A program made the translations under genes and the position numbers. From Parvibaculum sp. (GTDB lineage Bacteria; Pseudomonadota; Alphaproteobacteria; Parvibaculales; Parvibaculaceae), in the NCBI GenBank assembly GCA_019635955.1, contig JAHBYL010000001.1, positions 1 to 64,000 of the forward strand: a stretch of DNA of 64,000 nucleotides, in the 5' to 3' direction. Each line of letters begins with the position of its first letter. Position 1 is the first letter of the stretch. Of this stretch, positions 5,364-49,613 are shown piece by piece. Under the pieces are notes generated by a model. It saw only the letters and a program-made list of their open reading frames with translations. It made no database searches and had not been told where the DNA came from.

Positions 5364-7178
5364 CTAGTTTTCTTCGATCCACCAAGTCGAACTGCGATAG
5401 CCGTAGAGCGACGTCTTCTCCGGCAGCTTCACCTTTCGCCACAACGCCACCCATTGTTCGGGCTGATGGAAAAGCGGAATCATGTAGGCGCCGGACAGAA
5501 GCACGCGATCCATAGCGCGCACCGCCGCGGCAAAGTCTTCGCGTGTCCGCGCCGCGAGCATCGCTTCGATCATCGCGTCGACAGCCGGCTCCTTCGCGCC
5601 CATGTAATTTCGCGTTCCGGGCATATCGGCTGCGGCGGAGCCCCAATAGAAGCTTTGCTCATTGCCGGGAGAGAGCGAGGAAAACCAGCTGTTGAAGATC
5701 ATGTCGTAGTCGTAGTTGTTACGCCGTTCCTGATACTGGCTCGGATCGACGTTCCGCACCGCGATGGAGAGGCCGATACGGCTTGCCATCCGCGTATAGG
5801 TCAGAGCGAGGCGTTCTTCCGGCGGTGTCGCCACGAGAATTTCGAAGCGGAGAGGGCGCCCGCTTTTCACATTCGTCATCACGCCGTTCCGCAACTCGTA
5901 TCCGGCCTCTTTCAAAAGCGCGATGGCGCGGGCACGCGCGGCGCGATCCTGTCCGGTGGCATCGCCTCTAGGTGCTTGCCATCCATGAGCCATGATCTCC
6001 TCCGTGACGGCAGCGGGGTAAAGCGAAAGAAGCTCCCGCTCCCGCGTGTCAGCCGCGCGCCCGGCGGAGCCAAGTTCCGAGTTGTCGAAGAAGCTCTGCG
6101 TCCGGACGTAGGATCCGAAGTAGAGGTTGCGGTTCGCCCATTCGAAATTGAAAAGCTCGATCAATGCTTCGCGAACGCGCCTGTCGGCGAAGACAGGCCG
6201 CCGCGTGTTGAAGACCAGAGCATACATGCCGGAGGGCAGGCCGGTCTGGAATGTTTCCTTCCGCACTCGCCCGTCCCGCAGAGCCGGAAAATCGTAATTC
6301 GTGGCCCAGCGGCCCGGATCGTCCTCCGGCCGGGCGTGATAGACGCCCGTCTTGAACGCTTCGAAGGAGGAATTGGTGTCGCGAAAGTATTCATAGGTGA
6401 CGATGTCGATGTTGTAGTGGCCGGCATTCACAGGCAGGTCGCGGCCCCAATAGGCCGGATCGCGGCGATAGACGATGCGCCGTCCGGGGACGGTCCGCTC
6501 GACCATGTAGGGCCCGCTTCCGACGGGTGTCTCGAAGTTGGCGGCGCCGAAGTCGCGCTTCTCATAGACATGTTTTGGAATGATCGGCATGAGGCCGAGG
6601 ATCATCGGGATTTCCCGATCACCATCCGGCGTGAAATGGAGCTTAATGGTCCGCTCACCGATGCGCTCGATGCGTTCTACCTTGGAATAATAGGTCTTGT
6701 AGTTGGGCCGTCCCTTGTCCCGCAGCGTTTCCAGCGAGAAGACGACATCGTCCAGCGTGACGGGCATTCCATCGGAGAAGCGAGCTTCGGGATTCAGGGT
6801 GAAGGCGACCCAGCTCCGGTCGTCCGGGACTTCGACCGTTTCGGCAAGAAGGCCGTAAAGGCTGAAGGGCTCGTCGTAGCCCCGTGCCAGGAGGCTTTCG
6901 AAGACATGCTCGCGCAGGCCGAGCGCCGAGGTGCCCCGGACGATGAAGGGATTGAGACTGTCGAAGGAGCCCGCGGCGCCATAGGTAATGGCGCCGCCCT
7001 TGGGCGCGTCCGGATTGGCGTAGGCGAAATGGGTGAAGTCCTCCGGATAGAGGGGCTCGCCATGCATGGCAATGGCGTGGCGCGGGCCGTCCGCCGCCGC
7101 GGCGCCCACATAGAACAGCATGGCCAGCGCGGCAAACAAGGCGCCAAGGCAGAGCTTCGAATTTGAACGCAAGGTCAT
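5364..7178 (-). CDS. Extracellular solute-binding protein family 5, YejA-like
   Basis: 604 aa periplasmic ABC-transporter binding protein. A signal peptide covers about residues 1-29 (TLRSNSK, hydrophobic core, GAAAADG). The mature N-terminus holds HAIAMHGEPLYPEDF and PDAPKGGAITYGA, characteristic of the YejA subgroup that binds oligopeptides or microcin C-like ligands. The start at ATG 7178 puts a normal signal peptide at the N-terminus; an in-frame TTG at 7226 would add 16 residues before it. No permease or ATPase genes of a matching system lie nearby, so its partners must be elsewhere. It lies downstream of no obvious operon and seems to be transcribed alone. Confidence 0.9.
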   Translation of the reverse strand: MTLRSNSKLCLGALFAALAMLFYVGAAAADGPRHAIAMHGEPLYPEDFTHFAYANPDAPKGGAITYGAAGSFDSLNPFIVRGTSALGLREHVFESLLARGYDEPFSLYGLLAETVEVPDDRSWVAFTLNPEARFSDGMPVTLDDVVFSLETLRDKGRPNYKTYYSKVERIERIGERTIKLHFTPDGDREIPMILGLMPIIPKHVYEKRDFGAANFETPVGSGPYMVERTVPGRRIVYRRDPAYWGRDLPVNAGHYNIDIVTYEYFRDTNSSFEAFKTGVYHARPEDDPGRWATNYDFPALRDGRVRKETFQTGLPSGMYALVFNTRRPVFADRRVREALIELFNFEWANRNLYFGSYVRTQSFFDNSELGSAGRAADTRERELLSLYPAAVTEEIMAHGWQAPRGDATGQDRAARARAIALLKEAGYELRNGVMTNVKSGRPLRFEILVATPPEERLALTYTRMASRIGLSIAVRNVDPSQYQERRNNYDYDMIFNSWFSSLSPGNEQSFYWGSAAADMPGTRNYMGAKEPAVDAMIEAMLAARTREDFAAAVRAMDRVLLSGAYMIPLFHQPEQWVALWRKVKLPEKTSLYGYRSSTWWIEEN

Positions 7179-28113: not shown

Positions 28114-28919
28114 TGCCGCTGCCCGTCCTCATCGACAGCCATTGTCATCTCGACTTCCCGGATTTCGGCCCGGAGGTCGAGGAGGTCGTCGCGCGGGCGC
28201 ATGGTGCGGGCGTCGGGCTCATGCTCACCATTTCCACGAAGGTCAGCGAGTTCGACCGGGTGAGGGCGGTGGCGGAGCGGTTTCCCCATGTCTATTGCAC
28301 GGTCGGCATCCACCCGCATGAAGCGGCGAGCGAGCCCGAAACCGACACGGCGACCTTGGTTGAAATGGCGAAGCATCCCAAGGTCGTCGGCATTGGCGAG
28401 ACGGGGCTCGACTATTTCTACGAGCATTCCCCGCGCGAGGCGCAGCAGCGGAACTTCCGCGCCCATATCGCCGCCGCGCGCGAAACGGGATTGCCGCTTG
28501 TCGTGCATACGCGCGACGCGGATGAAGACACGGGCGAGATTCTGGCTGAGGAAATGGGGAAGGGCACCTTTCCGGGGCTTCTTCATTGCTTCAGTTCCGG
28601 CCCGCAACTCGCGGAAAAGGCTCTTGAAATCGGACTTTACATCTCGCTTTCCGGTATTCTCACCTTCAAGAACGCCGTGGAATTGCGCGAGACGGCGGCG
28701 AAAGTGCCGATGGACCGGCTGCTGGTCGAAACCGATGCGCCGTATCTCGCGCCGGTGCCGAAGCGCGGCAAGCGGAACGAGCCGAGCTTTGTGGTCCACA
28801 CCGCGGAAAGGCTCGCCGAGGTGAAAGGCGTCAGCGCTGCGGAACTCGCCGAGGCGACGACGGCCAATTTCCTCAGGCTTTTCAGCAGAGTACCGGCGGA
28901 GGCTGTGCGCCGGGCATGA
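28113..28919 (+). CDS. tatD: TatD family metal-dependent hydrolase
   Basis: 268 aa. Metal-binding motifs are DSHCHLDFPDF at the N-terminus, GIHPHEA, IGETGLDYFYEHSPREAQQRNF (conserved glutamate and aspartate), HTRDADEDT, HCFSSG and VETDAPYLAPVP. TatD proteins are Mg-dependent 3'-5' DNases/RNases with roles in repair and quality control. Start ATG overlaps the metG stop by one base. Its own stop overlaps the next ATG by four bases (ATGA), so metG-tatD-MBL form one translationally coupled unit. Confidence 0.93.
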   Translation: MPLPVLIDSHCHLDFPDFGPEVEEVVARAHGAGVGLMLTISTKVSEFDRVRAVAERFPHVYCTVGIHPHEAASEPETDTATLVEMAKHPKVVGIGETGLDYFYEHSPREAQQRNFRAHIAAARETGLPLVVHTRDADEDTGEILAEEMGKGTFPGLLHCFSSGPQLAEKALEIGLYISLSGILTFKNAVELRETAAKVPMDRLLVETDAPYLAPVPKRGKRNEPSFVVHTAERLAEVKGVSAAELAEATTANFLRLFSRVPAEAVRRA

Positions 28920-29734
28920 AGATGCGCGCGACGATCCTTGGATGCGGTTCCTCAGGCGGCGTTCCGCGGCCGGGCATTGGCGGGCCGTTCTGGGGCGCCT
29001 GCGACCCGGAAGAGCCGAAGAACCGGCGACGGCGCTGCTCGCTGCTCGTTGAGCAATGGGACAAGGACCCGAACGAAAAGACCGTCGTGCTGGTCGATAC
29101 GTCGCCCGACATGCGCGACCAGCTGATCGACGCAAAGACCGGCTGGGTCGATGCTGTGCTCTTCACGCATGACCATGCCGACCAGTGCCACGGGATCGAC
29201 GATCTGCGGATGCTCGCGATCAACAAGCGCCGCCGGGTCGATTGCTGGATGGACGCACCGACCGCCGACACGCTGCTTACGCGTTTCGGCTATTGCTTTC
29301 GGGAGAAGCCGGGCTCGGGTTATCCCGCGATCCTCAACGATCACATGATCGAGAGTCCCGGCAAGCCGATCCGAATCGACGGGCCCGGCGGCACCATCAC
29401 CGCACTGCCGTTCGACCAGGATCACGGCAATATCCGTTCGCTCGGATTCCGTTTCGGACCCTTCGCCTATTCGGCGGATGCAGTCGGTATTCCGGATGAG
29501 AGTTTCGCGCTACTAGACGGAATTCATTGCTGGATCGTGGATGCGCTGCGCTATGCGCCACACCCGACGCATGCTCATGTCGACATGGCGCTCGAATGGC
29601 TGAAGCGGGCGAGGGTGCCGCAGGGCATCCTCACCAATATGCATGTCGACCTGGACTATGGCCGGCTGAAAGGCGAACTGCCGACAGGTGTCGAACCCGC
29701 CTATGACGGCATGACGGTCGAATTCGAACTCTGA
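28916..29734 (+). CDS. MBL fold metallo-hydrolase (PhnP/RNase Z-like)
   Basis: 272 aa. Starts with ATILGCGSSGGVPRPG, the phosphodiesterase-type beta-lactamase fold N-terminus, followed by LVDTSPDMRDQL and the zinc motif THDHADQCHGIDDLR, then PFDQDHGNIRSLGFRFG and a C-terminal HVDMALEWLKRARVPQGILTNMHVDLDY. Similar to PhnP, a cyclic phosphodiesterase, and to the conserved gene following tatD in alphaproteobacteria. The physiological substrate is unknown. It overlaps the tatD stop by four bases. Confidence 0.9.
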   Translation: MKMRATILGCGSSGGVPRPGIGGPFWGACDPEEPKNRRRRCSLLVEQWDKDPNEKTVVLVDTSPDMRDQLIDAKTGWVDAVLFTHDHADQCHGIDDLRMLAINKRRRVDCWMDAPTADTLLTRFGYCFREKPGSGYPAILNDHMIESPGKPIRIDGPGGTITALPFDQDHGNIRSLGFRFGPFAYSADAVGIPDESFALLDGIHCWIVDALRYAPHPTHAHVDMALEWLKRARVPQGILTNMHVDLDYGRLKGELPTGVEPAYDGMTVEFEL

Positions 29735-29794: not shown

Positions 29795-30364
29795 TTACTG
29801 GTTTTTCGTCTGCGTCCGCGTCTCGCGGAGGATTTCTCCCGTCGCAGGATTTACGACGACTTCGACCTTGTTGCCGTGAGTGTCGAATGCCGTGAAGGCA
29901 CTGCCGTCGGCTGCGGCGGCCCCTTCGCTCGGGCGAATATCGGTGTAGCCGCGCTGCGTCAGAAGGTGGGTCGTCACGTCGGACCCGGTCGCGCCGCCGG
30001 TAACGCCGTCGACCGTGCCGGTCGTTCCTGTCGTGCCCGCGCCGCCCGTTGCGCCTGTGGCTCCGGTGCCGGCTGCTCCCGTACCCGTCGCTCCAGTGGT
30101 TCCGGTCGTGCCGGTGGCGCCCGTGGTGCCGTCCATCGTGCCGTCAACCGAGCCCGATGCGCCGCCCGTCGTGCCGGTGGTGCCGCCCATGGTGCCATCG
30201 ACGTCGCCCGTCACGCCACCTGTCGTGCCCGGCGTTCCGGTCGTTCCATCGATGGTTCCCGTGGCGCCGGCGCCAGCACCGCCTGCGTCCTGCGCAAGGG
30301 CGGGCGAAGCCGCGAGAGCAAAAACGGCAGTGCCTGCGAGAAGGGACTTGGTCCAGGATTTCAT
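29795..30364 (-). CDS. Exported Gly/Thr-repeat protein with C-terminal PepSY-like module
   Basis: 189 aa; no named family. Signal peptide residues 1-24 ([19 protein letters not shown], cleavage after ALA). Residues 26-128 are almost pure Gly, Thr, Ala and Asp, with many GxT triplets (GTT, GAT) reminiscent of collagen-like tracts but too irregular to be one. Residues 133-181 are a compact domain with [10 protein letters not shown], then [25 protein letters not shown]. This module recurs in the next three genes on this strand. It should be periplasmic or surface located. CTGGAGGACG precedes the ATG. Confidence 0.75.
29990..30290. repeat. Degenerate short tandem repeats inside the Gly/Thr-rich gene
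   Basis: Imperfect three- and nine-base repeats (plus strand: GTTCCGGTCGTGCC, GTGGCGCCCGTGGTGCCG and variants) encode the Gly-x-Thr tract of the gene on the minus strand. Such tracts are prone to slippage, so length may vary between strains. Confidence 0.6.
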
Positions 30365-30474
30365 TGATCGTCCTCCAGTCTGTATCTCGGTCCCACGTCA
30401 CCACCCATAGAAGCGAACTGGGGCGGCGGGAGGATGGGTCAATGGGAGGAGGGCCGATTACGCCCGGCAGGACG

Positions 30475-30511
30475 AAAAAGCCTGGCCCGCGCATCACACA
30501 GATGGCGGGCC
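30475..30511 (-). terminator. Rho-independent terminator after the gene at 30536-30952
   Basis: On the minus strand a 7-bp stem (GGCCCGC and GCGGGCC, 14-base loop) is followed after four bases by TTTTT (30479-30475). It lies 25 bases after the stop codon of the gene at 30536. Confidence 0.6.
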
Positions 30512-30535
30512 TGACTTTTCAGCGCGCGATGGAAC

Positions 30536-30952
30536 TTATTGTTTCGACGGTTTGTCGAGCTTGCGCAGATAGGTTTCACGCGTGATTTCGCCGGTGCGCT
30601 TGTCGACGATTAGTTTCACCGGTTCACCCATGCGGTTTGCAGCATGGAAGGCCATTTCGCTTTCGAGCGTAACACCGGGCACGCGTTCGGCGCCGTGATA
30701 GCCTTTCTCCTCAAGCCAGGCGATCGGATCGACGAGGTCCATCGTGTTGCCGACAAGCGCACCTGTCGTTGTCGTGGTCACGGTGGTCGTGGTCACCGTG
30801 CCGCTTGCCGGATCGACATAGGTGTCGCTTGCGGCGCCGACCGCAGGACCACCCTGCACAACAACCAGCGTATCGGCCAGCGCCGAAAGGGGCGCGGCGG
30901 CGATACCGGCCGCAGCGGCGGCAACAAGAAACGGCTTTCTGATCTTCTGCAT
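30536..30952 (-). CDS. Exported protein with C-terminal PepSY-like module (138 aa)
   Basis: 138 aa; second member of the local family. Signal peptide residues 1-27 (QKIRKPFLVAAAAAGIAAA, cleavage after ALA). A short Thr-rich segment (residues 50-65, TVTTTTVTTTTTG) is the counterpart of the longer low-complexity part of its neighbours. Residues 78-127 are the shared module: AWLEEKGYHGAERVPG, then AFHAANRMGEPVKLIVDKRTGEITRE. The ATG at 30952 is preceded by AAGGGAG; an upstream in-frame start would spoil the signal peptide. Likely periplasmic; function unknown. Confidence 0.72.
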   Translation of the reverse strand: MQKIRKPFLVAAAAAGIAAAPLSALADTLVVVQGGPAVGAASDTYVDPASGTVTTTTVTTTTTGALVGNTMDLVDPIAWLEEKGYHGAERVPGVTLESEMAFHAANRMGEPVKLIVDKRTGEITRETYLRKLDKPSKQ

Positions 30953-30995
30953 GAGACTTGTCTCCCTTGATCCGTCCCCATGCACCCTCACCATA

Positions 30996-31021
30996 AACGC
31001 TTCAGTGCCTGAAACCGCTCC
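30996..31021 (-). promoter_or_regulatory. Candidate ECF-type promoter, gene at 30536-30952
   Basis: On the minus strand GGAGC is followed after 17 bases by CGTT, 44 bases before the ATG. This is one mismatch from the GGAAC/CGTT pattern known for alphaproteobacterial EcfG (general stress sigma factor) promoters. It is the weakest of three similar sites in this cluster. Confidence 0.3.
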
Positions 31022-31087
31022 CGACGACGGGGAACATTGTCAGAAAATCGGACAGTGTGAATCAACACTGTGCAGAACGCTGCGCGC

Positions 31088-31124
31088 AAAAGAGAACGGC
31101 GCGGAAGCCGAAACTTCCGCGCCG
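31088..31124 (-). terminator. Rho-independent terminator after the gene at 31148-31468
   Basis: A perfect 11-bp stem (CGGCGCGGAAG and CTTCCGCGCCG, six-base loop) begins 24 bases after the stop codon. On the minus strand it is followed by the T-rich TTCTCTTTT. Confidence 0.75.
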
Positions 31125-31147
31125 CTCGTCACATCCCGGAGACGGGA

Positions 31148-31468
31148 TTAGTAGGCCGGCTCTTCGCCGATCACCGTTGCGGAGTTCGAGTCGAACTCCA
31201 CCGTCACGCGGTCGCCATCGATGTTGGTGGCGTTGAAGCGCTGCACACCATCCTCGGAAGCGTCGCCTTCAGCTTCGACCGGCTCGATATCCGTATAGCC
31301 GAGAGCCTGGAGCGAGGTTTCCGCGTCACCGGCCGGGGAGAGCTCCACGGCGCCTTCCATCTGCGCGTCGGCGCCGGCGGGCTGATCCATGTCCGCGGCA
31401 AGCGCGGGACCGGCGATCAGGCCAAGGCTGGCGGTACCGGCGAGAAGGAGCTTCTTGAAGTTCGTCAT
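31148..31468 (-). CDS. Exported protein with C-terminal PepSY-like module (106 aa)
   Basis: 106 aa; third member of the local family and the one with the shortest linker. Signal peptide residues 1-25 (TNFKKLLLAGTASLGLIAG, cleavage after ALA), nearly the same as in the 214-aa neighbour. An acidic linker (residues 26-50) leads to the shared module at 52-102: LQALGYTDIEPVEAEG, then FNATNIDGDRVTVEFDSNSATVIGE. The start at 31468 gives a nine-base spacing to GGAGG; ATG 31474, two codons upstream, is only three bases from it and is the alternative. Acidic and small; probably periplasmic. Function unknown. Confidence 0.72.
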   Translation of the reverse strand: MTNFKKLLLAGTASLGLIAGPALAADMDQPAGADAQMEGAVELSPAGDAETSLQALGYTDIEPVEAEGDASEDGVQRFNATNIDGDRVTVEFDSNSATVIGEEPAY

Positions 31469-31520
31469 GGTCATGTTCCTCCAGAAGAGTTGTGCAGCCC
31501 TGTCGTTGCTGCGATACCCA

Positions 31521-31547
31521 TACAACGTCCCGGAAGCCAAACGGTTC
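31521..31547 (-). promoter_or_regulatory. Candidate ECF-type promoter, gene at 31148-31468
   Basis: On the minus strand GAACCG, 15 bases, GTTGTA. Read as GAAC-N16-CGTT this fits the EcfG consensus except for the first G. It ends 47-53 bases before the start codon. The same two hexamers with the same spacing precede the next gene at 32379-32405. Confidence 0.45.
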
Positions 31548-31611
31548 ACCGTATCAAGAAACTGCCCCGGATGTGGCCGCGATGTGACGAAATCCCATAA
31601 TCTGCAGCACC

Positions 31612-31656
31612 AAAAAGAGAAGAGGGCGCAACACGCTCTCGGCGTATCGCACCCTC
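31612..31656 (-). terminator. Rho-independent terminator after the gene at 31686-32330
   Basis: On the minus strand the stem GAGGGTGCG...CGCCCTC encloses an inner ACGC/GCGT pair, and is followed by TTCTCTTTTT. It begins 30 bases after the stop codon. Confidence 0.65.
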
Positions 31657-31685
31657 CGTGTCCTGACGAAATGTGTGAGCCGGGA

Positions 31686-32330
31686 TTATTCCGCCTGCTC
31701 GTTGAGGACCATCCCGGTGCGCCCGTCGACGACGACTTTCACCGGCTCGCCATCCGGGTTGGTGGCAGTGAATTCAGATTCACCTCCCGCCGATGCTGCG
31801 CCTTCCACCGGCTCGATGTCGCTGTAGCCCAACTGGGCGAGGCTGGCCGCCGGGTCAATATCGGGAACCGGTGCCATGTCGCCTTCAGCCTGCGCGGTGC
31901 CGCCGCCGGAGACGCTCCCGCCGATGCCACCCAATTCCGCCTCGGTATCGCTGCTGACGGCGCCTTTGCCGGCTCCGGCGAGGCCCGAAACGGCCCCGGT
32001 GGCGGTGTCCGCCGCGCCACGGACTGTACCCTGGGCATTGTTGACGGTGTTCTGAACCGCTCCAGGGTTAGCCGCACCGGTACCCGATACCGATGCACCG
32101 CCCTTGGCGCCAACCGAAAGGCCGGTGGGGGAGCCTGCGTTCGTGCCGGCGGCGTCCATGCGCGAGTCTACGGAAGCATCGCCAGCCACGCCGCCGGAAG
32201 CGGCTCCGCCCGGGACAGCACCCGAGACGGCGCCAGTGGTGTTGCCGAGCAGGTCATTTGCCAGCACGGGCGACGCGATCAGCGCGAAGCTTGCCGTACC
32301 TGCGAGAAGTATCTTCTTCAGCTGCGTCAT
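31686..32330 (-). CDS. Exported Gly/Ala-rich protein with C-terminal PepSY-like module (214 aa)
   Basis: 214 aa; fourth and longest member of the local family. Signal peptide residues 1-24 (TQLKKILLAGTASFALIAS, cleavage after VLA). Residues 28-155 are a flexible Gly/Ala/Ser/Val-rich tract with repeated TGAVSG units (residues 32-37 and 111-116). Residues 163-212 are the shared module: LAQLGYSDIEPVEG, then FTATNPDGEPVKVVVDGRTGMVLNE. It ends VDGRTG as PepSY domains do. CTGGAGGATC precedes the ATG. It is probably periplasmic or surface-exposed. Function unknown. Confidence 0.75.
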   Translation of the reverse strand: MTQLKKILLAGTASFALIASPVLANDLLGNTTGAVSGAVPGGAASGGVAGDASVDSRMDAAGTNAGSPTGLSVGAKGGASVSGTGAANPGAVQNTVNNAQGTVRGAADTATGAVSGLAGAGKGAVSSDTEAELGGIGGSVSGGGTAQAEGDMAPVPDIDPAASLAQLGYSDIEPVEGAASAGGESEFTATNPDGEPVKVVVDGRTGMVLNEQAE

Positions 32331-32378: not shown

Positions 32379-32405
32379 TACAACTATCCAAACGTCACGC
32401 GGTTC
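32379..32405 (-). promoter_or_regulatory. Candidate ECF-type promoter, gene at 31686-32330
   Basis: On the minus strand GAACCG, 15 bases, GTTGTA: both hexamers and the spacing equal those at 31521-31547, and the site ends 49 bases before the ATG. The sequence between the hexamers differs, so the match is not simply a copied stretch. Confidence 0.45.
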
Positions 32406-32535
32406 GACGTCCTGGCGAAATACCCCGAAATGACCTCATGTGTGGCGGAAATGGACGAAGGTAAGCCGCTGTTACAAAAGCCTTTTGCCTGACCGGATCG
32501 TTGTTGCCCCCAAAGAACGGGCCAACCCGCCGAGG

Positions 32536-42002: not shown

Positions 42003-43397
42003 TCAGATGGGGAGGTCCGGACGGTTCGCCGCGGCGACGCCGAGCGATTTCAGCTTCCGGTGGAGGGCCGAGCGTTCCATGCCGATGAAGGCCGCCGTGC
42101 GCGAGATATTGCCGCCGAAGCGGCTGATCTGGGCCATGAGATATTCCCGCTCGAATGTCTCCCGTGCCTCGCGCAGGGGGAGCGCCATGATGTGTTCACC
42201 GCCCGAGCCGTTGACCGACATCTGCGCCGACGCCCCCACTTCCGCAGGAAGCATGTCGGCGGTTACAACGGCGGTCGGATCTCCCGAGGTGAGGATCAGC
42301 AGCCGTTCGATATTGTTGCGGAGCTGACGGACATTGCCCGGCCAGTCATGGGCCTGCAACGCCGCCATGGCGTCGTCCGACACGCGACGCGGCGGAAGGC
42401 CAGTCGCTCGCGAAATCTGCGCCATGAAATGTTCGACCAGCAGAGGAATATCCTCGCGGCGCGCTGCCAGCGGTGGAACATTGATCGGCACCACATTGAG
42501 GCGGTGATAGAGATCCTCGCGGAAGCGCCCCTTGGAAATCTCGTCGAGCAGATCGCGGCTCGAGGAGGAAACGACGCGCACGTCGACTTTCACCCGTGCG
42601 CTGCCGCCGACACGCTCGAAGGTCTGGTCGACGAGAACGCGCAAAATCTTGCTCTGCGTCTCGATGGGCATCTCCGCAACTTCATCGAGGAACAGGGTGC
42701 CGCCATGCGCCTGCTCGAAAACGCCGACCTTTCGCGGGCCCGCTGCGCTTTCTTCCGTTCCGAAGAGCTCCGCCTCCATACGCTCGGGCGCCATGTTCGC
42801 CGCGTTGAGCGCGACAAAGGCGTTCGCCACGCGCCGCGACCGCTCGTGCAGCAGGCGGGCTACGACTTCCTTGCCGGAGCCGGACGGGCCCTGGATGAGC
42901 ACACGGCTATTGGTGGGCGCCACCTTGTCCACCGTCTGCCGCACCTGGGAAAGAGCCGGAGAGATGCCGACAAGCGTCGTGTCGTCGCCGGCGCGCAGGC
43001 GCAGCTCGCTGTTCTCGCGGCGTAGCCTGTAAGCCTCGATGGCGCGGCGGACAACGAGAATGAGCCGATCGGTCTTGAACGGCTTTTCGATGAAGTCGTA
43101 GGCGCCCTTCTTGATCGCGGAGACGGCCGTTTCGATATTGCCATGGCCGCTGATTACGACAACCGGGAGATCAGGGTGACGGTCGCGCACGACATCCAGC
43201 AGCTCGAGCCCGTCGAGCTTGCTTCCCTGCAGCCAGATGTCGAGGATCAGCAAACCGGGCCGGCGCGCCTCGATGGCGGCGAGCGCCTTGTCGCTGTCGC
43301 CTGCCGTCCGCGTGTCATAGCCTTCATCGTTCAGGATGCCGGAGACGAGTTCGCGAATATCCGCTTCATCGTCGACGATCAGTATATCAGACGCCAT
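42003..43397 (-). CDS. ntrX: Response regulator NtrX
   Basis: 464 aa. The receiver domain (residues 1-120) has Asp53 as phosphoacceptor. The AAA+ domain holds the P-loop GPSGSGKE and the Walker B GTLFLDEVAEMP, and a Fis-type HTH ends the protein (NISRTAAFIGMERSALHRKL). The sigma-54 contact loop, GAFTGA in true enhancer-binding proteins, is here FGTEESAAGPRKVG, so activation with sigma-54 is unlikely. NtrX controls nitrogen, redox and envelope genes. Its start overlaps ntrY by 11 bases. Confidence 0.95.
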   Translation of the reverse strand: MASDILIVDDEADIRELVSGILNDEGYDTRTAGDSDKALAAIEARRPGLLILDIWLQGSKLDGLELLDVVRDRHPDLPVVVISGHGNIETAVSAIKKGAYDFIEKPFKTDRLILVVRRAIEAYRLRRENSELRLRAGDDTTLVGISPALSQVRQTVDKVAPTNSRVLIQGPSGSGKEVVARLLHERSRRVANAFVALNAANMAPERMEAELFGTEESAAGPRKVGVFEQAHGGTLFLDEVAEMPIETQSKILRVLVDQTFERVGGSARVKVDVRVVSSSSRDLLDEISKGRFREDLYHRLNVVPINVPPLAARREDIPLLVEHFMAQISRATGLPPRRVSDDAMAALQAHDWPGNVRQLRNNIERLLILTSGDPTAVVTADMLPAEVGASAQMSVNGSGGEHIMALPLREARETFEREYLMAQISRFGGNISRTAAFIGMERSALHRKLKSLGVAAANRPDLPI

Positions 43398-45744
43398 TTA
43401 CAGCCTCTTCGCTTGCCTTCGTGGCGGCGCTCGCGGCACTGCCGAAATTATTGTCGCCGGCCAGCCTTCTTGCGGCACGGCGTTTCGGAAAAACGAGCTT
43501 CACCCTCGCGCCGCTTTCCCAGCCTTCGCCTTGCGGCGCATCTTCGAGCAGCAACTCGCCGCCATGGTCTTCCATCACCTTGTTCACGATGGCGAGGCCG
43601 AGGCCGGTGCCCTTGGCCCGCGTCGTCATGTAAGGCTCCGTGAGACGTGACCTGTCGGCCTCGGGAAACCCGCAGCCCGAATCCGTCGCGATGATCGTTA
43701 CCTTGTCTTCCTCGTCAAACAGGCCGATGTGAATGCGTCCAATCTTCGCACCCGGCGTCGCGTGCCGCGCGGATGTCATGCCTTCCTCATCGGTCTCATC
43801 TTCCTCCGGTCCGCGTATCGCTTCGGCTGCATTCTTCAGAATGTTTGTCAGCGCCTGGCTCACCAGACGGCCGTCGCATTCGAGCGTGACAGAGCTTTCC
43901 GGCATATCGAGCTTGTAGTCGATATCGGGGTGTCCGACGCGCTGAAGGAAGACCGCCTGCCGCAGGATCTCGTTCACTTCCATTTCCTTCATGGATGCCG
44001 ATGGCATGCGCGCGAAGGAGGAGAATTCGTCCACCATCCTTCCGATATCGTTCACCTGACGGATGATCGTCTGTGTGCATTGCTCGAAGACATCCGGATC
44101 GGAGACGATCTCCTTTCCGTATTTCCGGCGGATGCGTTCTGCCGAGAGCTGGATCGGCGTCAGCGGGTTCTTGATTTCATGTGCAATGCGCCGTGCGACA
44201 TCCGCCCAGGCGGAGGTGCGCTGCGCACGCACCAGCTCGGTAATGTCGTCGAAAGTCAGCACGAAGCCACCCTGCCCTGAATCCGTCACCTCGCGGGTCG
44301 CCCGCAGATTGAGGGTGCGATCTTGCCCGGCGCGAGAAATCACGATCTGCGCCTGCGCCGTGCGCTCGGGATGAGCGCGCGAGTCCTCCGCAGCGGCAGC
44401 CATTTCGGGAATCGCAGATTCCAGCATCCGGCCCACAAGCTGCGATTCCGTCTGACCGAAAAAACGCAAGGCGGCGCGGTTTGCATGGGTGATCCGGCCT
44501 TCATTGTCGAGGCCGAGCACGCCGGCGCTGACACCGGAGAGCACTGCTTCCGTGAATTGCCGGCGTTCATCGAGCTGGTGGTTTGCCTCGATCAGGTCGT
44601 TCCGCTGACTTTCGATCTGACTGGTCATGCGGTTGAAGGCTCCGCTCAGCATATCGAGCTCGTCTCCCGTCCCGCCGACAGGCACGCGCGCGCGCAAATC
44701 GCCAAGACTGACGCGCTCGGCCGCCCCGACGAGCCGGGAGATCGGATCGACGATGCGATTTGCCGCCCAGAGACCGAGCCAGATCGCGGCGAGAAGCGTG
44801 ATCAGCGCGACCGTCACGTAGATCAGCGCGAAAGTGACCTGGAACTGATTGCGGCGGCTTTCGAGGTTTTCGTACTCGCTGACGGCTGCTCGCGTTTCCG
44901 CCAGATGCTCGAGCACCTGCGCATCCACAAGCCGGGCAACGTAAAGGAACGTCCCTTCCAGGGAAGGAAGTGCCACCAGCGCGCGGATCTGGTTGTGATC
45001 CTCGACGACGAAGAGCGCTACATCGTTCGCGCGAGCCGTGTCGAAATAGCGCGTTTCCGGCATGCCCACGTCTACACTGCCCCGGGCCTTTGCAAGGATG
45101 CGCCCATCCGCGCGGATCAGATAGGCGGCGTGAAGTGAGCGCACGCGCATCTGGCCGTTGAACAGAGTCATGAAATAGGCAGGGTTGCTGTCCAGAAGTT
45201 CGGACTCGCGGTTGATGTCCGTCGCCATGGCGAGCGTGTCGGCGCGCAGCACCTGCCTGTGTTCATTGAGATAGGCGGCGGCGACCGTCTCGGCATTCGA
45301 GATGATGGTCTGGGCTCGGTCGCCGAACCAGGTATCGAGGCCTCGATTGAGCGTCACGGCGGCGAAAACGGCCACAATGATCGCCGGCATGACGGCGACG
45401 ATGGCAAAGAGCGTCACCAGCCGGGCGTGGAGCTTGGCACCTGCCGTGCCGCTCACCCGCGCCAGAATGATCCGGATGACCCGCCAGAAGATGAGCCCGA
45501 CCAGCACCAGGACGATGGCCAGGTTTGCGAGCAGGAGGGAAATGACCAGGCCGCGCGTGGGCGAGAACGGCGTCAGGCCCGTCAGCAGCATATAGGTGAA
45601 CGACCCGAGGCAGATCGCGGCCACGACCAGACCGATCGACAAGGCAGCCGAGAAGCCCCGGTGGCTGAACATCCGCCACAGCCGGCTTTCCCAGCGAGCC
45701 GCCCGGCCTTGCCGGAGCTCATTCAATTGATCTGTCGGTACCAT
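43387..45744 (-). CDS. ntrY: Sensor histidine kinase NtrY
   Basis: 785 aa. Three membrane segments lie in the first 130 residues, followed by a periplasmic region and another membrane segment near residue 315. A HAMP domain (ANRIVDPISRLVGAAERVS) and a PAS domain follow. The H-box [20 protein letters not shown] carries the phosphorylated histidine, and the ATPase domain holds TDSGCGFP and GTGLGLAIV. The ATG at 45744 follows AGGGACTGGC; the GTG 15 codons upstream is less likely. It phosphorylates NtrX, encoded next. Confidence 0.95.
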   Translation of the reverse strand: MVPTDQLNELRQGRAARWESRLWRMFSHRGFSAALSIGLVVAAICLGSFTYMLLTGLTPFSPTRGLVISLLLANLAIVLVLVGLIFWRVIRIILARVSGTAGAKLHARLVTLFAIVAVMPAIIVAVFAAVTLNRGLDTWFGDRAQTIISNAETVAAAYLNEHRQVLRADTLAMATDINRESELLDSNPAYFMTLFNGQMRVRSLHAAYLIRADGRILAKARGSVDVGMPETRYFDTARANDVALFVVEDHNQIRALVALPSLEGTFLYVARLVDAQVLEHLAETRAAVSEYENLESRRNQFQVTFALIYVTVALITLLAAIWLGLWAANRIVDPISRLVGAAERVSLGDLRARVPVGGTGDELDMLSGAFNRMTSQIESQRNDLIEANHQLDERRQFTEAVLSGVSAGVLGLDNEGRITHANRAALRFFGQTESQLVGRMLESAIPEMAAAAEDSRAHPERTAQAQIVISRAGQDRTLNLRATREVTDSGQGGFVLTFDDITELVRAQRTSAWADVARRIAHEIKNPLTPIQLSAERIRRKYGKEIVSDPDVFEQCTQTIIRQVNDIGRMVDEFSSFARMPSASMKEMEVNEILRQAVFLQRVGHPDIDYKLDMPESSVTLECDGRLVSQALTNILKNAAEAIRGPEEDETDEEGMTSARHATPGAKIGRIHIGLFDEEDKVTIIATDSGCGFPEADRSRLTEPYMTTRAKGTGLGLAIVNKVMEDHGGELLLEDAPQGEGWESGARVKLVFPKRRAARRLAGDNNFGSAASAATKASEEAVNGV

Positions 45745-45944
45745 GCCAGTCCCTGCGCGGCCGGGACACTGCCTGCATTGAACGGGCACCGGGGGATAAC
45801 ATCTACCGCCCTACCTGTGCCCGATACGCCACGCCGCCTTTCGGCAGCGCGCATTTTGCAACTGTCGGCGATACCGATCAACAACAATGTTGCGCGTTTA
45901 CATCACCGTCATATGACAGAGAAAAACCGAAATTTCATCTTTTG

Positions 45945-45962
45945 GGCCTCTCACTTGAGGCC
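45945..45962. other. Stem-loop at the ntrC stop codon
   Basis: GGCCTC and GAGGCC flank six bases that include the ntrC stop codon. No T tract follows in the minus direction, so it may stall exonucleases rather than terminate. The 200 bases to ntrY hold no gene. Confidence 0.3.
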
Positions 45963-47393
45963 ACGGATTACCTGAATATCGAGTTCCCTGATCTTCTTGC
46001 GCAGCGTGTTGCGATTGATGCCCAGGAGATGCGCCGCCTTGATCTGGTTTCCTCTTGTCGCAGCGAGGCTCATGCTGAAAAGCGGCCTTTCCACTTCCCG
46101 CAACAGCCGGTCGTAAAGGCCGGGGGGCGGCAGGTCGTCGCCATGGGCGGCAAAGATACGATTCAGTGTCCGCTCGACCGAGACGGAAAGAGGCTCGTCG
46201 GCGGCCGCCTGTTCCGCCGGCCTGCCGAAATCGGGCTCGGCCAGTTCCGTCTCGAGAATGGAGGCACCGATCGTTTCTTCTGTATAAAGCGCGGCAAGAC
46301 GGCGCACGAGATTCTCGAGTTCGCGGACGTTGCCCGGCCAGCGATACCGCTTCAGCAGTTCCATGCCTTCGGCGTCGATGGTCTTCGGCGGCAGGCCTTC
46401 ATCCTCGGCCTGGCCGAGGAAGTGGCGGACGAGATCTGGAATATCCTCAGAACGCTCGCGCAGCGGCGGAAGGCGGATCGGCACCACATTGAGGCGGAAG
46501 AACAGATCTTCCCGGAACAGCCCCTGATTGATGAGCTGCCGCAGGTCGCGGTTCGTGGCCGCCACGATGCGCACGTCTGTCTTGATCGGGGTACGTCCGC
46601 CGACCGTTGTGTATTCGCCTTGCTGCAGCACACGCAGCAGCCTTGTCTGCGCCTCCATCGGCATGTCGCCGATTTCATCGAGGAAGAGTGTGCCGCCTTC
46701 CGCCTGTTCGAAGCGGCCTGTGGCGCGCTGGCTTGCTCCCGTAAAAGCGCCCTTCTCGTGACCGAAGAGTTCGCTTTCAATCAATTCGCGGGGGATTGCC
46801 GCCATGTTGACTGCGACGAAGGGACCGTTCCGCCGACGGCCGTAATCATGCAGTGCCCGGGCGACGAGTTCCTTGCCGGTGCCGCTTTCACCCGAGATCA
46901 TCACCGTGAGGTCGGTCTGCATTAGCCGCGCGAGAACGCGGTAGATATCCTGCATGGCCGGCGAACGGCCGATCAGCGGAATCTTCTCGTCTTCCTCCGG
47001 TTGCTGCCTCGCGATGGCGGGCTCCCGCGGCGCCGTCATGGCGCGGTCGACGACGCGGATCAGCTCATTGAGGTCGAAGGGTTTCGGCAGATACTCATAG
47101 GCACCCCGCTCCGCCGCGGTGATCGCCGTTTTCAGAGTGTTCTGCGCACTCATCACCATGATCGGAAGTTCGGGCCGTGCGCGCTTGATGCGCGGGATCA
47201 GGTCGAAGGCATTTTCGTCCGGCATCACGACGTCCGTGATGATGAGATCGCCCTCGCCCTGGCTTACCCAGCGCCAGAGCGTCGCTGCGTTACCCGTCGA
47301 GCGCACTTCATACCCGACGCGACCAAGCGCCTGATTGAGAACGGTCCTGATTGCCGCGTCGTCATCCGCGAGAAGAATGGTTCCGCTAGCCAT
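45951..47393 (-). CDS. ntrC: Nitrogen regulator NtrC
   Basis: 480 aa. The receiver domain has phosphoacceptor Asp54. The AAA+ domain has GESGTGKE and an intact [11 protein letters not shown] sigma-54 contact loop, and Walker [13 protein letters not shown]. The C-terminal Fis-type HTH reads [20 protein letters not shown]. It activates sigma-54 promoters of nitrogen assimilation genes when phosphorylated by NtrB. Its start overlaps the ntrB stop by eight bases. Confidence 0.96.
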
Positions 47394-48546
47394 TGGCCTC
47401 TCCTGTTACCTGCCGCATTGCCTGCGCCCTGGCGCCATGTCCCACGGTTGCGCCCGTATGCATGGGCAGCAGCACGCGGAAAATCGTTTTACGGGGAAGA
47501 CTCTCGCATTCGACGATGCCGCCGTGGTCGCCGATGATCTTGGCGACAAGCGCGAGGCCGAGACCCGTGCCGGATGTCTTCGTCGTCACGAAGGGATCGA
47601 AGAGGTGTTCCATGAGATCGGCCGGGACACCCGGACCGTCGTCGATCACGCAGATTTCGAGGGGAAGACTCACGCGGTCGCGGCTCCCTGGCATGGAAAG
47701 ACGCACGCCCGGCCGGTACGCCGTCGTCAGGACGATTTCGCCGTCGCCGCCGCCGATTGCCTCCGCCGCATTCTTCACGAGATTGAGAAACACCTGAATG
47801 AGCTGATCCTTGTCGCCCAGCACCGGAGGAAGCGAAGGGTCGTATTCCTCGAGGATGCGAATGTTCTTTGCAAATCCCGTCGTGGCGAGCTGCTTCACAT
47901 GGCCAAGGACGAGATGAATATTCACCGGCTCGCGCGGCACGGGCCGCTCGTCGGAGAAGACTTCCATCCGGTCCACAAGCTTGCAGATGCGGTCGGTCTC
48001 GTCGCAGATGAGGCGCGTAAGCGTCTTGTCTTCGGGCGAGCCCGACAGTTCCAGAAGCTGCGCCGCTCCGCGAATGCCCGATAGGGGGTTCTTGATCTCG
48101 TGCGCAAGTATCGCCGCCATGCCCGTAACGGAGCGGGCAGCGCCACGATGCGTAAGCTGCCGGTCCATCTTCTGTGCCATGGTACGCACCTGCAGCTGCA
48201 GCAGGACATGCCCCGGATATTCGACCAGAGGCGTCACCTGAATATCGACCTGGCGGTCGCCAATGCGCGGTGTACCGAGCTCGACGCCATATTCGTTGAC
48301 GGAGACGCCGCGCTCAAAGACCTGGTCGATAAGAGCAAGAACGGGACTTCCGAAAGCCACCACATCACTCATCGAATGCCCAAGCAGCATCGCTGAACTT
48401 GCGGCAAAAAACTCCTGTGCGCTGTCGTTCACGTATTCGATGCGCTTGTCGCGATCGATCAGCATGACCGGGTGAGGCATCGATTTCAGGATGACGCTCG
48501 CTTCGGGCGGTCCGCCGGAGCCAATGGAACGAACGGCCTGCGACAT
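47386..48546 (-). CDS. ntrB: Nitrogen sensor kinase NtrB (GlnL)
   Basis: 386 aa. An N-terminal PAS domain ([24 protein letters not shown]) is followed by the H-box [20 protein letters not shown] and an ATPase domain with DDGPGVP and [12 protein letters not shown]. Soluble; controlled by PII protein. The ATG at 48546 overlaps the dusB stop (TGATG), giving the order dusB-ntrB-ntrC usual in alphaproteobacteria. Confidence 0.96.
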
Positions 48547-49613
48547 CACGCAGCCTCCTTGTTCTTCGATTTTTGAGCGGGGTCGGTACGAGCGGCCAGA
48601 TCGTAGAATGCGGCAAGGCGCGACAACACCGCCGCCGGATTGTCCAAGCGTACGATCTCGCGCTTCGCTTCCATTGCTTCTTCGGGAAAGCGGCGCGATG
48701 CATCTTCGAGATACCAGACGAGGTGCTTGCGTGCGACGCGGAGACCGAGACCTTCGCCGTAGTGCCCGATCATGTCGCGGTAATGCGTGGCTGCGATTTC
48801 GCCCTGCTCTTCCCACGAGGGCGGTGCGAGCTTTTCACCCGTCGCAAGGTAATGCGCGACCTGGGCGAGGAACCAAGGACGTCCCTGCGCGCCGCGGCCG
48901 ATCATCACCGCATCTGCACCGCTCGCATCGAGGATCGCGCGGGCATCTTCCTCGCTCGTCACATCGCCATTCGCGACGACGGGAATCGACACCACCTTCT
49001 TTACCTCGGAAATGAAATTCCAGTCCGCCCTGCCCTTGTAGAACTGGCAGCGGGTACGACCATGGACCGTGACCATCTTCACCCCGGCAGCCTCGGCACG
49101 GGCGGCAAGTTCCGGCGCATTCCGCTTCATCTCGTCCCAGCCGGTACGCATCTTCAGCGTCACGGGCAGCTCGACGGCACCGACCGTGGCCTCGATCAAA
49201 CTCAATGCATGGTCGAGATCGCGCATCAAGGCGGAGCCAGACAGGCCGGTCGTAACCTGCTTGGCGGGACACCCCATGTTGATATCGATGATGTCCGCGC
49301 CGGCAGCTGCCGCGACCCTTGCCCCCTCAGCCATCCAGCGCGCCTCGCGGCCCGCGAGCTGGATCGAGAGCGGCCTGAACTCACCGGCACCCGCTGCCCG
49401 GCGCACGACATCGGGACGAGCGCGGACCAGTTCATCGCTCGCGACCATTTCCGACACGACGAGACCGGCTCCGAGGCGATGGGCGGCACGGCGGAAAGGC
49501 AGGTCTGTCACGCCGGCCATGGGAGCCAGCAGGACCGGGTTTGCGAGAAGGTGTGGGCCGATTGAGATGGTCAAACTTTGGGCACCGAATAAAACTGCAC
49601 AAATTTTGCCCAA
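48546..49613 (-). CDS. dusB: tRNA-dihydrouridine synthase DusB
   Basis: 355 aa FMN TIM-barrel. [22 protein letters not shown] opens the fold; [20 protein letters not shown] contains the catalytic cysteine; [12 protein letters not shown] and [12 protein letters not shown] bind FMN and tRNA. It reduces uridines in tRNA D-loops. The start is uncertain: TTG 49613 lies within a short A/T-rich leader, while TTG 49574 would begin just before the conserved [14 protein letters not shown]. It precedes ntrB with a 1-base overlap. Confidence 0.93.

Follow-up and report, generated by a model that had tools for sequence, protein, structure and literature searches.

A tandem array of genes for exported proteins with a divergent PepSY-type module in Parvibaculum, and its probable link to general stress control

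Four consecutive genes of a Parvibaculum genome encode predicted exported proteins that share one small C-terminal module, and together with their relatives they represent a real lineage-specific family within the known PepSY superfamily, with a new and probable link to the general stress response. The window, by which we mean the whole stretch of DNA that was analysed, comprises 64,000 nucleotides (Parvibaculum sp., assembly GCA_019635955.1, contig JAHBYL010000001.1, positions 1 to 64,000). We place about even confidence in the reading as a whole, according to which this is a Parvibaculum-specific family of soluble, exported PepSY_2-type proteins that was tandem-duplicated, binds a partner and is stress-induced in some species.

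Results

Anatomy of the genes and proteins

A previous reading of the sequence alone described four exported proteins with a shared C-terminal module. Four open reading frames are present on the minus strand at 29795-32330, and the description stands once the starts of two of them are trimmed. We named the genes A to D by ascending window coordinate.

29795..30364, minus strand: gene A, signal peptide, 104-residue Gly/Thr/Ala linker and PepSY_2-like module; 189 aa, C-terminus KNQ
29798..29980, minus strand: module A, E 5.5e-22 to the module profile
30536..30952, minus strand: gene B (corrected start), signal peptide, Thr-rich linker of about 50 residues, module and tail ending KPSKQ; 138 aa
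30539..30730, minus strand: module B, matched by the module profile; AlphaFold order H-E-E-E-E, pLDDT 85
31148..31474, minus strand: gene C (corrected start 31474 or 31468), signal peptide, 23-residue acidic linker and module; 108 or 106 aa
31151..31327, minus strand: module C, matched by the module profile
31686..32330, minus strand: gene D, signal peptide, 134-residue Gly/Ala/Ser linker and module; 214 aa
31689..31856, minus strand: module D, matched by the module profile; AlphaFold order H-E-E-E-E, pLDDT 87

In each protein, a Sec-type signal peptide is followed by a linker of low complexity and, at the C-terminus, by one module of about 55 residues. For B and C the starts as listed were too long, and the trimmed starts agree with the orthologues, which for gene B were found in eight other genomes. 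The start of B lies most likely at 30952 (138 aa, versus 152 as listed), and that of C at 31474 or 31468 (108 or 106 aa, versus 133). With these starts, every protein opens with an n-region of positive charge, followed by a hydrophobic core and a cleavage site of the AxA type (MTQLKKILLAGTASFALIASPVLA and similar). Signal peptides occur in nearly all array copies whose start is present, and they are about as well conserved as the module; they support the earlier prediction that the proteins are exported and, of the two locations that it named, periplasm or surface, they speak for the periplasm. An alignment of the four window modules confines all gaps to one loop, as had been noted, and in 28 modules the residues G10, G36, V39 and E53 are invariant. 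Spacers of about 170-210 bases lie between the genes, which need not share one transcript.

Assignment of the module

In related genomes, a profile built from the four window modules and their relatives detects some 40 copies, the majority at per-genome E-values between 1e-15 and 1e-28, and the shared module is therefore beyond chance. It almost certainly belongs to the PepSY superfamily in the broad sense. The resemblance to PepSY that had been suspected is borne out by a profile-profile match, by the predicted fold and by sub-threshold Pfam scores. As to PF13670, the match is significant when profiles are compared (hhalign of the 28-module profile against 21 proteins above the PF13670 cut-off, from other Alphaproteobacteria and this genome: 97.1% probability, E 4.7e-11), but every single copy scores below the gathering cut-off of 24.3 bits (A 22.4, B 10.1, C 18.1, D 17.5). 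Moreover, the module profile alone recovers PF13670-positive proteins in another family (G159, E 3.5e-7). The conserved Glu of the PF13670 Y-E-V motif is invariant in the member alignment (E31) and variable in the array modules. Because the cut-off is not reached and this Glu is not kept, we call the module divergent PepSY_2-type and not a member of PF13670. A search of the modules against NCBIfam likewise returned nothing above cut-off, and public annotation would therefore probably miss the array family. The earlier statement that no such family is known holds as far as the Pfam and NCBIfam cut-offs are concerned, but the superfamily to which the module belongs is a known one.

The AlphaFold models of D and B, the two of the four modules that were modelled, agree with each other: both predict a helix at 4-11 followed by four strands (pLDDT 87 and 85). 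In these models we find the helix followed by an antiparallel sheet that characterizes the PepSY superfamily, as in YpmB. Of the solved structures, that of the YpmB PepSY domain aligns best (2gu3, VIA-align; Z 7.2 over 57 residues, 2.3 A), and YpeB and UipA (PDB 7ATH, Z 4.9) are also among the matches; Z scores below 8 are in the range that the tool calls common and may reflect a common arrangement. Foldseek alone gave no match at E < 0.001, a single-sequence search against solved structures gave chance matches only, and there is a weak sequence match to a PepSY/M4 propeptide (E 0.034). The structure scores are not decisive alone; together with the sequence profile they are decisive.

The presence of UipA among these matches raises the alternative that the array proteins are periplasmic metal-binding proteins of its kind, in which acidic linkers and PepSY modules bind cations. 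UipA is a PepSY protein reported as a uranium and iron binder (as cited in PMC12714742), and the linkers of C and D are net acidic. However, the linkers of B are near neutral in some species, the module carries no conserved acidic cluster, His or Cys, its invariant residues being two G, one V and one E, and no metal-transport gene neighbours the array. We regard metal binding as quite unlikely.

Chromosomal site and distribution

The array occupies one fixed site in 18 of 27 Parvibaculum genomes, with 1-4 copies each, and in all 18 it begins 19-122 bases past the stop of a convergent PhnP-like gene. Conservation of the array with variation in copy number, which had been proposed for checking, is thus what we observe. 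Its flanks in the window are as follows.

28916..29734, plus strand: PhnP-like gene of the metallo-beta-lactamase fold, conserved flank, convergent with the array in every array-bearing genome
32617..33795, minus strand: exported glucose/sorbosone dehydrogenase-like protein, flank, with a close orthologue at the array in the two nearest relatives only

In six species (G004, G005, G006, G007, G009 and G018) other genes follow the PhnP-like stop and no module was found at the site; three genomes (G003, G020 and G023) lie outside this judgement of presence or absence. One extra copy lies outside the array site in G019, and a nineteenth profile match, in G007 (E 0.001, in a 1431-residue frame), was discarded as chance. 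In four further genera of the family, the module profile matched none of the 13 members searched (0/13), and the viral contigs searched held no relative of the module. A pattern scan of public genomes with the type-C alignment returned relatives recorded as Parvibaculum, Parvibaculaceae or Rhodobiaceae, and once as Alphaproteobacteria only. A literature search returned no work joining the PepSY domain and Parvibaculum.

The neighbours of the array are holB, a methionyl-tRNA synthetase-like gene, tatD, the phnP-like gene, the glucose/sorbosone dehydrogenase gene (GSDH), a second metallo-beta-lactamase gene, MFS_2 and mazG; none of them is a protease, sensor kinase, metal or metal-transport gene. 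The sugar-dehydrogenase-like gene has close orthologues in G002 (95%) and G021 (78%) only, the other genomes having paralogues of about 40% identity elsewhere. It therefore looks like an accessory gene beside the array, and we dropped it as a candidate partner. The nearest two-component genes found, NtrBC/NtrYX-like, are more than 9 kb from the array: at 42003-48816, minus strand, the window contains two adjacent pairs, each of a sigma-54 response regulator and a histidine kinase, that resemble NtrYX and NtrBC.

Divergence of modules and linkers

Four paralogue types, corresponding to A-D, recur as orthologues across species; the duplications are therefore mostly older than these species, and losses account for many of the later differences. 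A tree of the modules recovers types A, B and C, with the D-like copies loosely grouped, although it has few columns and limited support. The earlier reading held that divergence was restricted to the linkers, and this is contradicted by the identities: the modules of the window paralogues are just 27-48% identical to each other (59-69% within types), and linkers are conserved within types (38-57%, versus 30-45% for shuffled linkers). The excess over shuffled controls is clear in B and D and less so in A and C. Selection for presenting one module at different distances is accordingly unsupported in the form proposed, since the modules diverge too and each type keeps its own linker. In one lineage (G017 and G026), a type-C module stands on a long linker resembling those of type D (z up to 7.5 versus shuffles), and linker and module can therefore reassort.

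L040 (G017) 5940-6440 and L048 (G026) 6049-6651, minus strand: type-C module with D-like linker, sharing an S-x-GAKGGAS motif

The conservation of the linkers could also mean that the Gly/Ala/Thr-rich linkers are the working part, a hydrophilin-like shield of the envelope, with the PepSY module as a folded anchor or solubility cap. Within-type linker identity of 50-57% in D, B and A (versus 33-45% shuffled), Gly contents of up to 37% and the EcfG-like promoters described below, which suggest stress control, are in keeping with such a role. Nevertheless, type C keeps its module on merely 23 linker residues, and in B, C and D conservation is higher in the module than in the linker. Furthermore, unlike classical hydrophilins, the mature proteins show no strong hydrophilicity (GRAVY -0.03 to -0.49), and values so near zero weaken the classical hydrophilin reading. 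We consider protective linkers unlikely.

Two copies are incomplete. A remnant of a type-C gene lies at 5445-5597 of L046 (G024), minus strand, and a type-D module at 2940-3194 of L047 (G025), plus strand, is in an open frame that has neither signal peptide nor long linker; the remnant and the truncated copy are decay in progress. Such copies, together with the range of 0-4 copies and a site that is empty in six species, fit a selfish or neutral expansion, in which a GC-rich, repeat-prone locus duplicates and decays without a selected multi-copy function. Against this, four orthologous types persist in different species, with signal peptide, linker and module all conserved, and nearly every species that carries type B has the EcfG-like site in the same form, and we hold this explanation to be very doubtful.

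Candidate EcfG promoters

The EcfG promoter reported for Rhizobium etli is GGAAC-N16-CGTT (PMC3892343). Sequences close to GGAAC-N16/17-CGTT lie upstream of type B and of many type C and D genes, with one form of the site in nearly all species carrying type B. In the window, the motif was scored at 9 positions against the R. etli-derived consensus.

30996..31021, minus strand: EcfG-like site upstream of B, GGAGC-N17-CGTT, 8/9; 1.2% of random window segments score this high
31524..31548, minus strand: EcfG-like site upstream of C, TGAAC-N16-CGTT, 8/9
32382..32406, minus strand: weak EcfG-like site upstream of D, CGAAC-N16-AGTT, 7/9; reached by 21% of random segments and not significant alone

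Upstream of gene A, no EcfG-like site was found in the window, G002 or G021. Scores of at least 8/9 occur in 16 of 37 array upstreams versus 1.2% of random window segments, and a narrower position rule gives 6 of 25 non-redundant upstreams versus 0.4% of random segments and none of 81 control ORFs; these figures are optimistic, because the site was spotted by eye before scoring.

Among the 17 array-bearing genomes compared (the window's own left out), a strong site is present in 8 of 9 with NepR versus 0 of 8 without it; the resulting Fisher P of 4e-4 treats related species as independent observations, which they are not. Joint changes of NepR and promoter state fall on just about three independent branches, and all or nearly all of them point the same way (sign test P 0.25). 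A search of the window's own assembly, which is 87% complete, found no NepR, and G002, its near-identical closest relative, has two copies. At the P. lavamentivorans nepR locus, phyR, ecfG and nepR stand together. On these motifs and their distribution, we consider it probable that array genes are linked to EcfG control in PhyR-NepR-EcfG species. A literature search for PepSY together with EcfG returned nothing joining both.

Two further features were seen at these loci. In many Parvibaculum genomes (L124-L127), the phyR-ecfG locus carries a pair of nepR genes with a spacing of about 1.9 kb. In types C and D, a shared box near GGTMATTTC immediately precedes the promoter-like site (for example, window minus strand, about 32390-32440 and 31550-31600); it also occurs in species that lack NepR, in which TTGACC comes next, and judged by its sequence it is a possible regulator site.

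Discussion

According to the reading that we prefer, each array protein would be soluble and exported by the Sec route to the periplasm, with a disordered stalk that carries a single divergent PepSY_2-type domain. The types A-D would have arisen by tandem duplication at one fixed place in the chromosome, and were then kept or lost by species. In PhyR-NepR-EcfG species, several array genes would be transcribed from EcfG-type promoters, and such transcription would place the proteins in an envelope arm of the general stress response there, a placement that is supported but unproven. The module may bind and modulate a periplasmic partner, such as a sensor domain or a protease, as in DbfQ or the protease propeptides, and the type-specific linker may set its reach or local environment. 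Because the genes beside the array include none for a protease, a sensor kinase or metals, binding of a protein partner is proposed by analogy with these systems, and we regard it as possible, though short of probable. A bolder form is that the array is a lineage-specific, stress-induced set of periplasmic PepSY regulators with exchangeable stalks, in which each paralogue, under the general stress sigma factor, tunes a different envelope target and members are gained or lost by species; we think this unlikely.

To our knowledge, PepSY domains are widespread and mostly of unknown function, and few, for example DbfQ, have a demonstrated partner. Natural paralogues that carry one fold on different stalks are a ready comparison set, and the genus includes a cultured type strain, P. 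lavamentivorans DS-1, with three array copies. If the link to EcfG is true, small PepSY proteins would be an envelope branch added to the alphaproteobacterial general stress response.

Comparison with known systems

The closest known proteins are those of PepSY_2 (PF13670), small exported single-domain alphaproteobacterial proteins that, as in the array, combine a signal peptide with a helix-plus-sheet domain. They share with the array modules the GY and G-x-x-V/E-x-x-x-D-x-x-T-G pattern and a significant profile-profile match. The array differs in its scores under the cut-off, in F-x-A in place of the Y-E motif, in its long type-specific linkers and in its tandem layout.

In Vibrio cholerae, the PepSY protein DbfQ binds the kinase DbfS at its sensor domain (Nat Commun 2025, PMC12714742). 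It resembles the array proteins as a small Sec-exported protein with a single PepSY domain, and gene pairs lie side by side in some bacteria; however, dbfQ adjoins the gene of its kinase, whereas the array has no two-component gene nearby. UipA, a protein of soil bacteria, has the PepSY fold and appeared in the structure comparison with the array module. It is a reported metal binder (as cited in the same paper) and has another architecture, and no conserved metal ligands were seen in the array modules. Finally, YpmB and YpeB of Bacillus and the propeptides of M4 proteases have a PepSY fold like that of the array module, but there the domain forms part of a membrane protein or of a protease precursor, whereas the array module stands alone behind a flexible linker.
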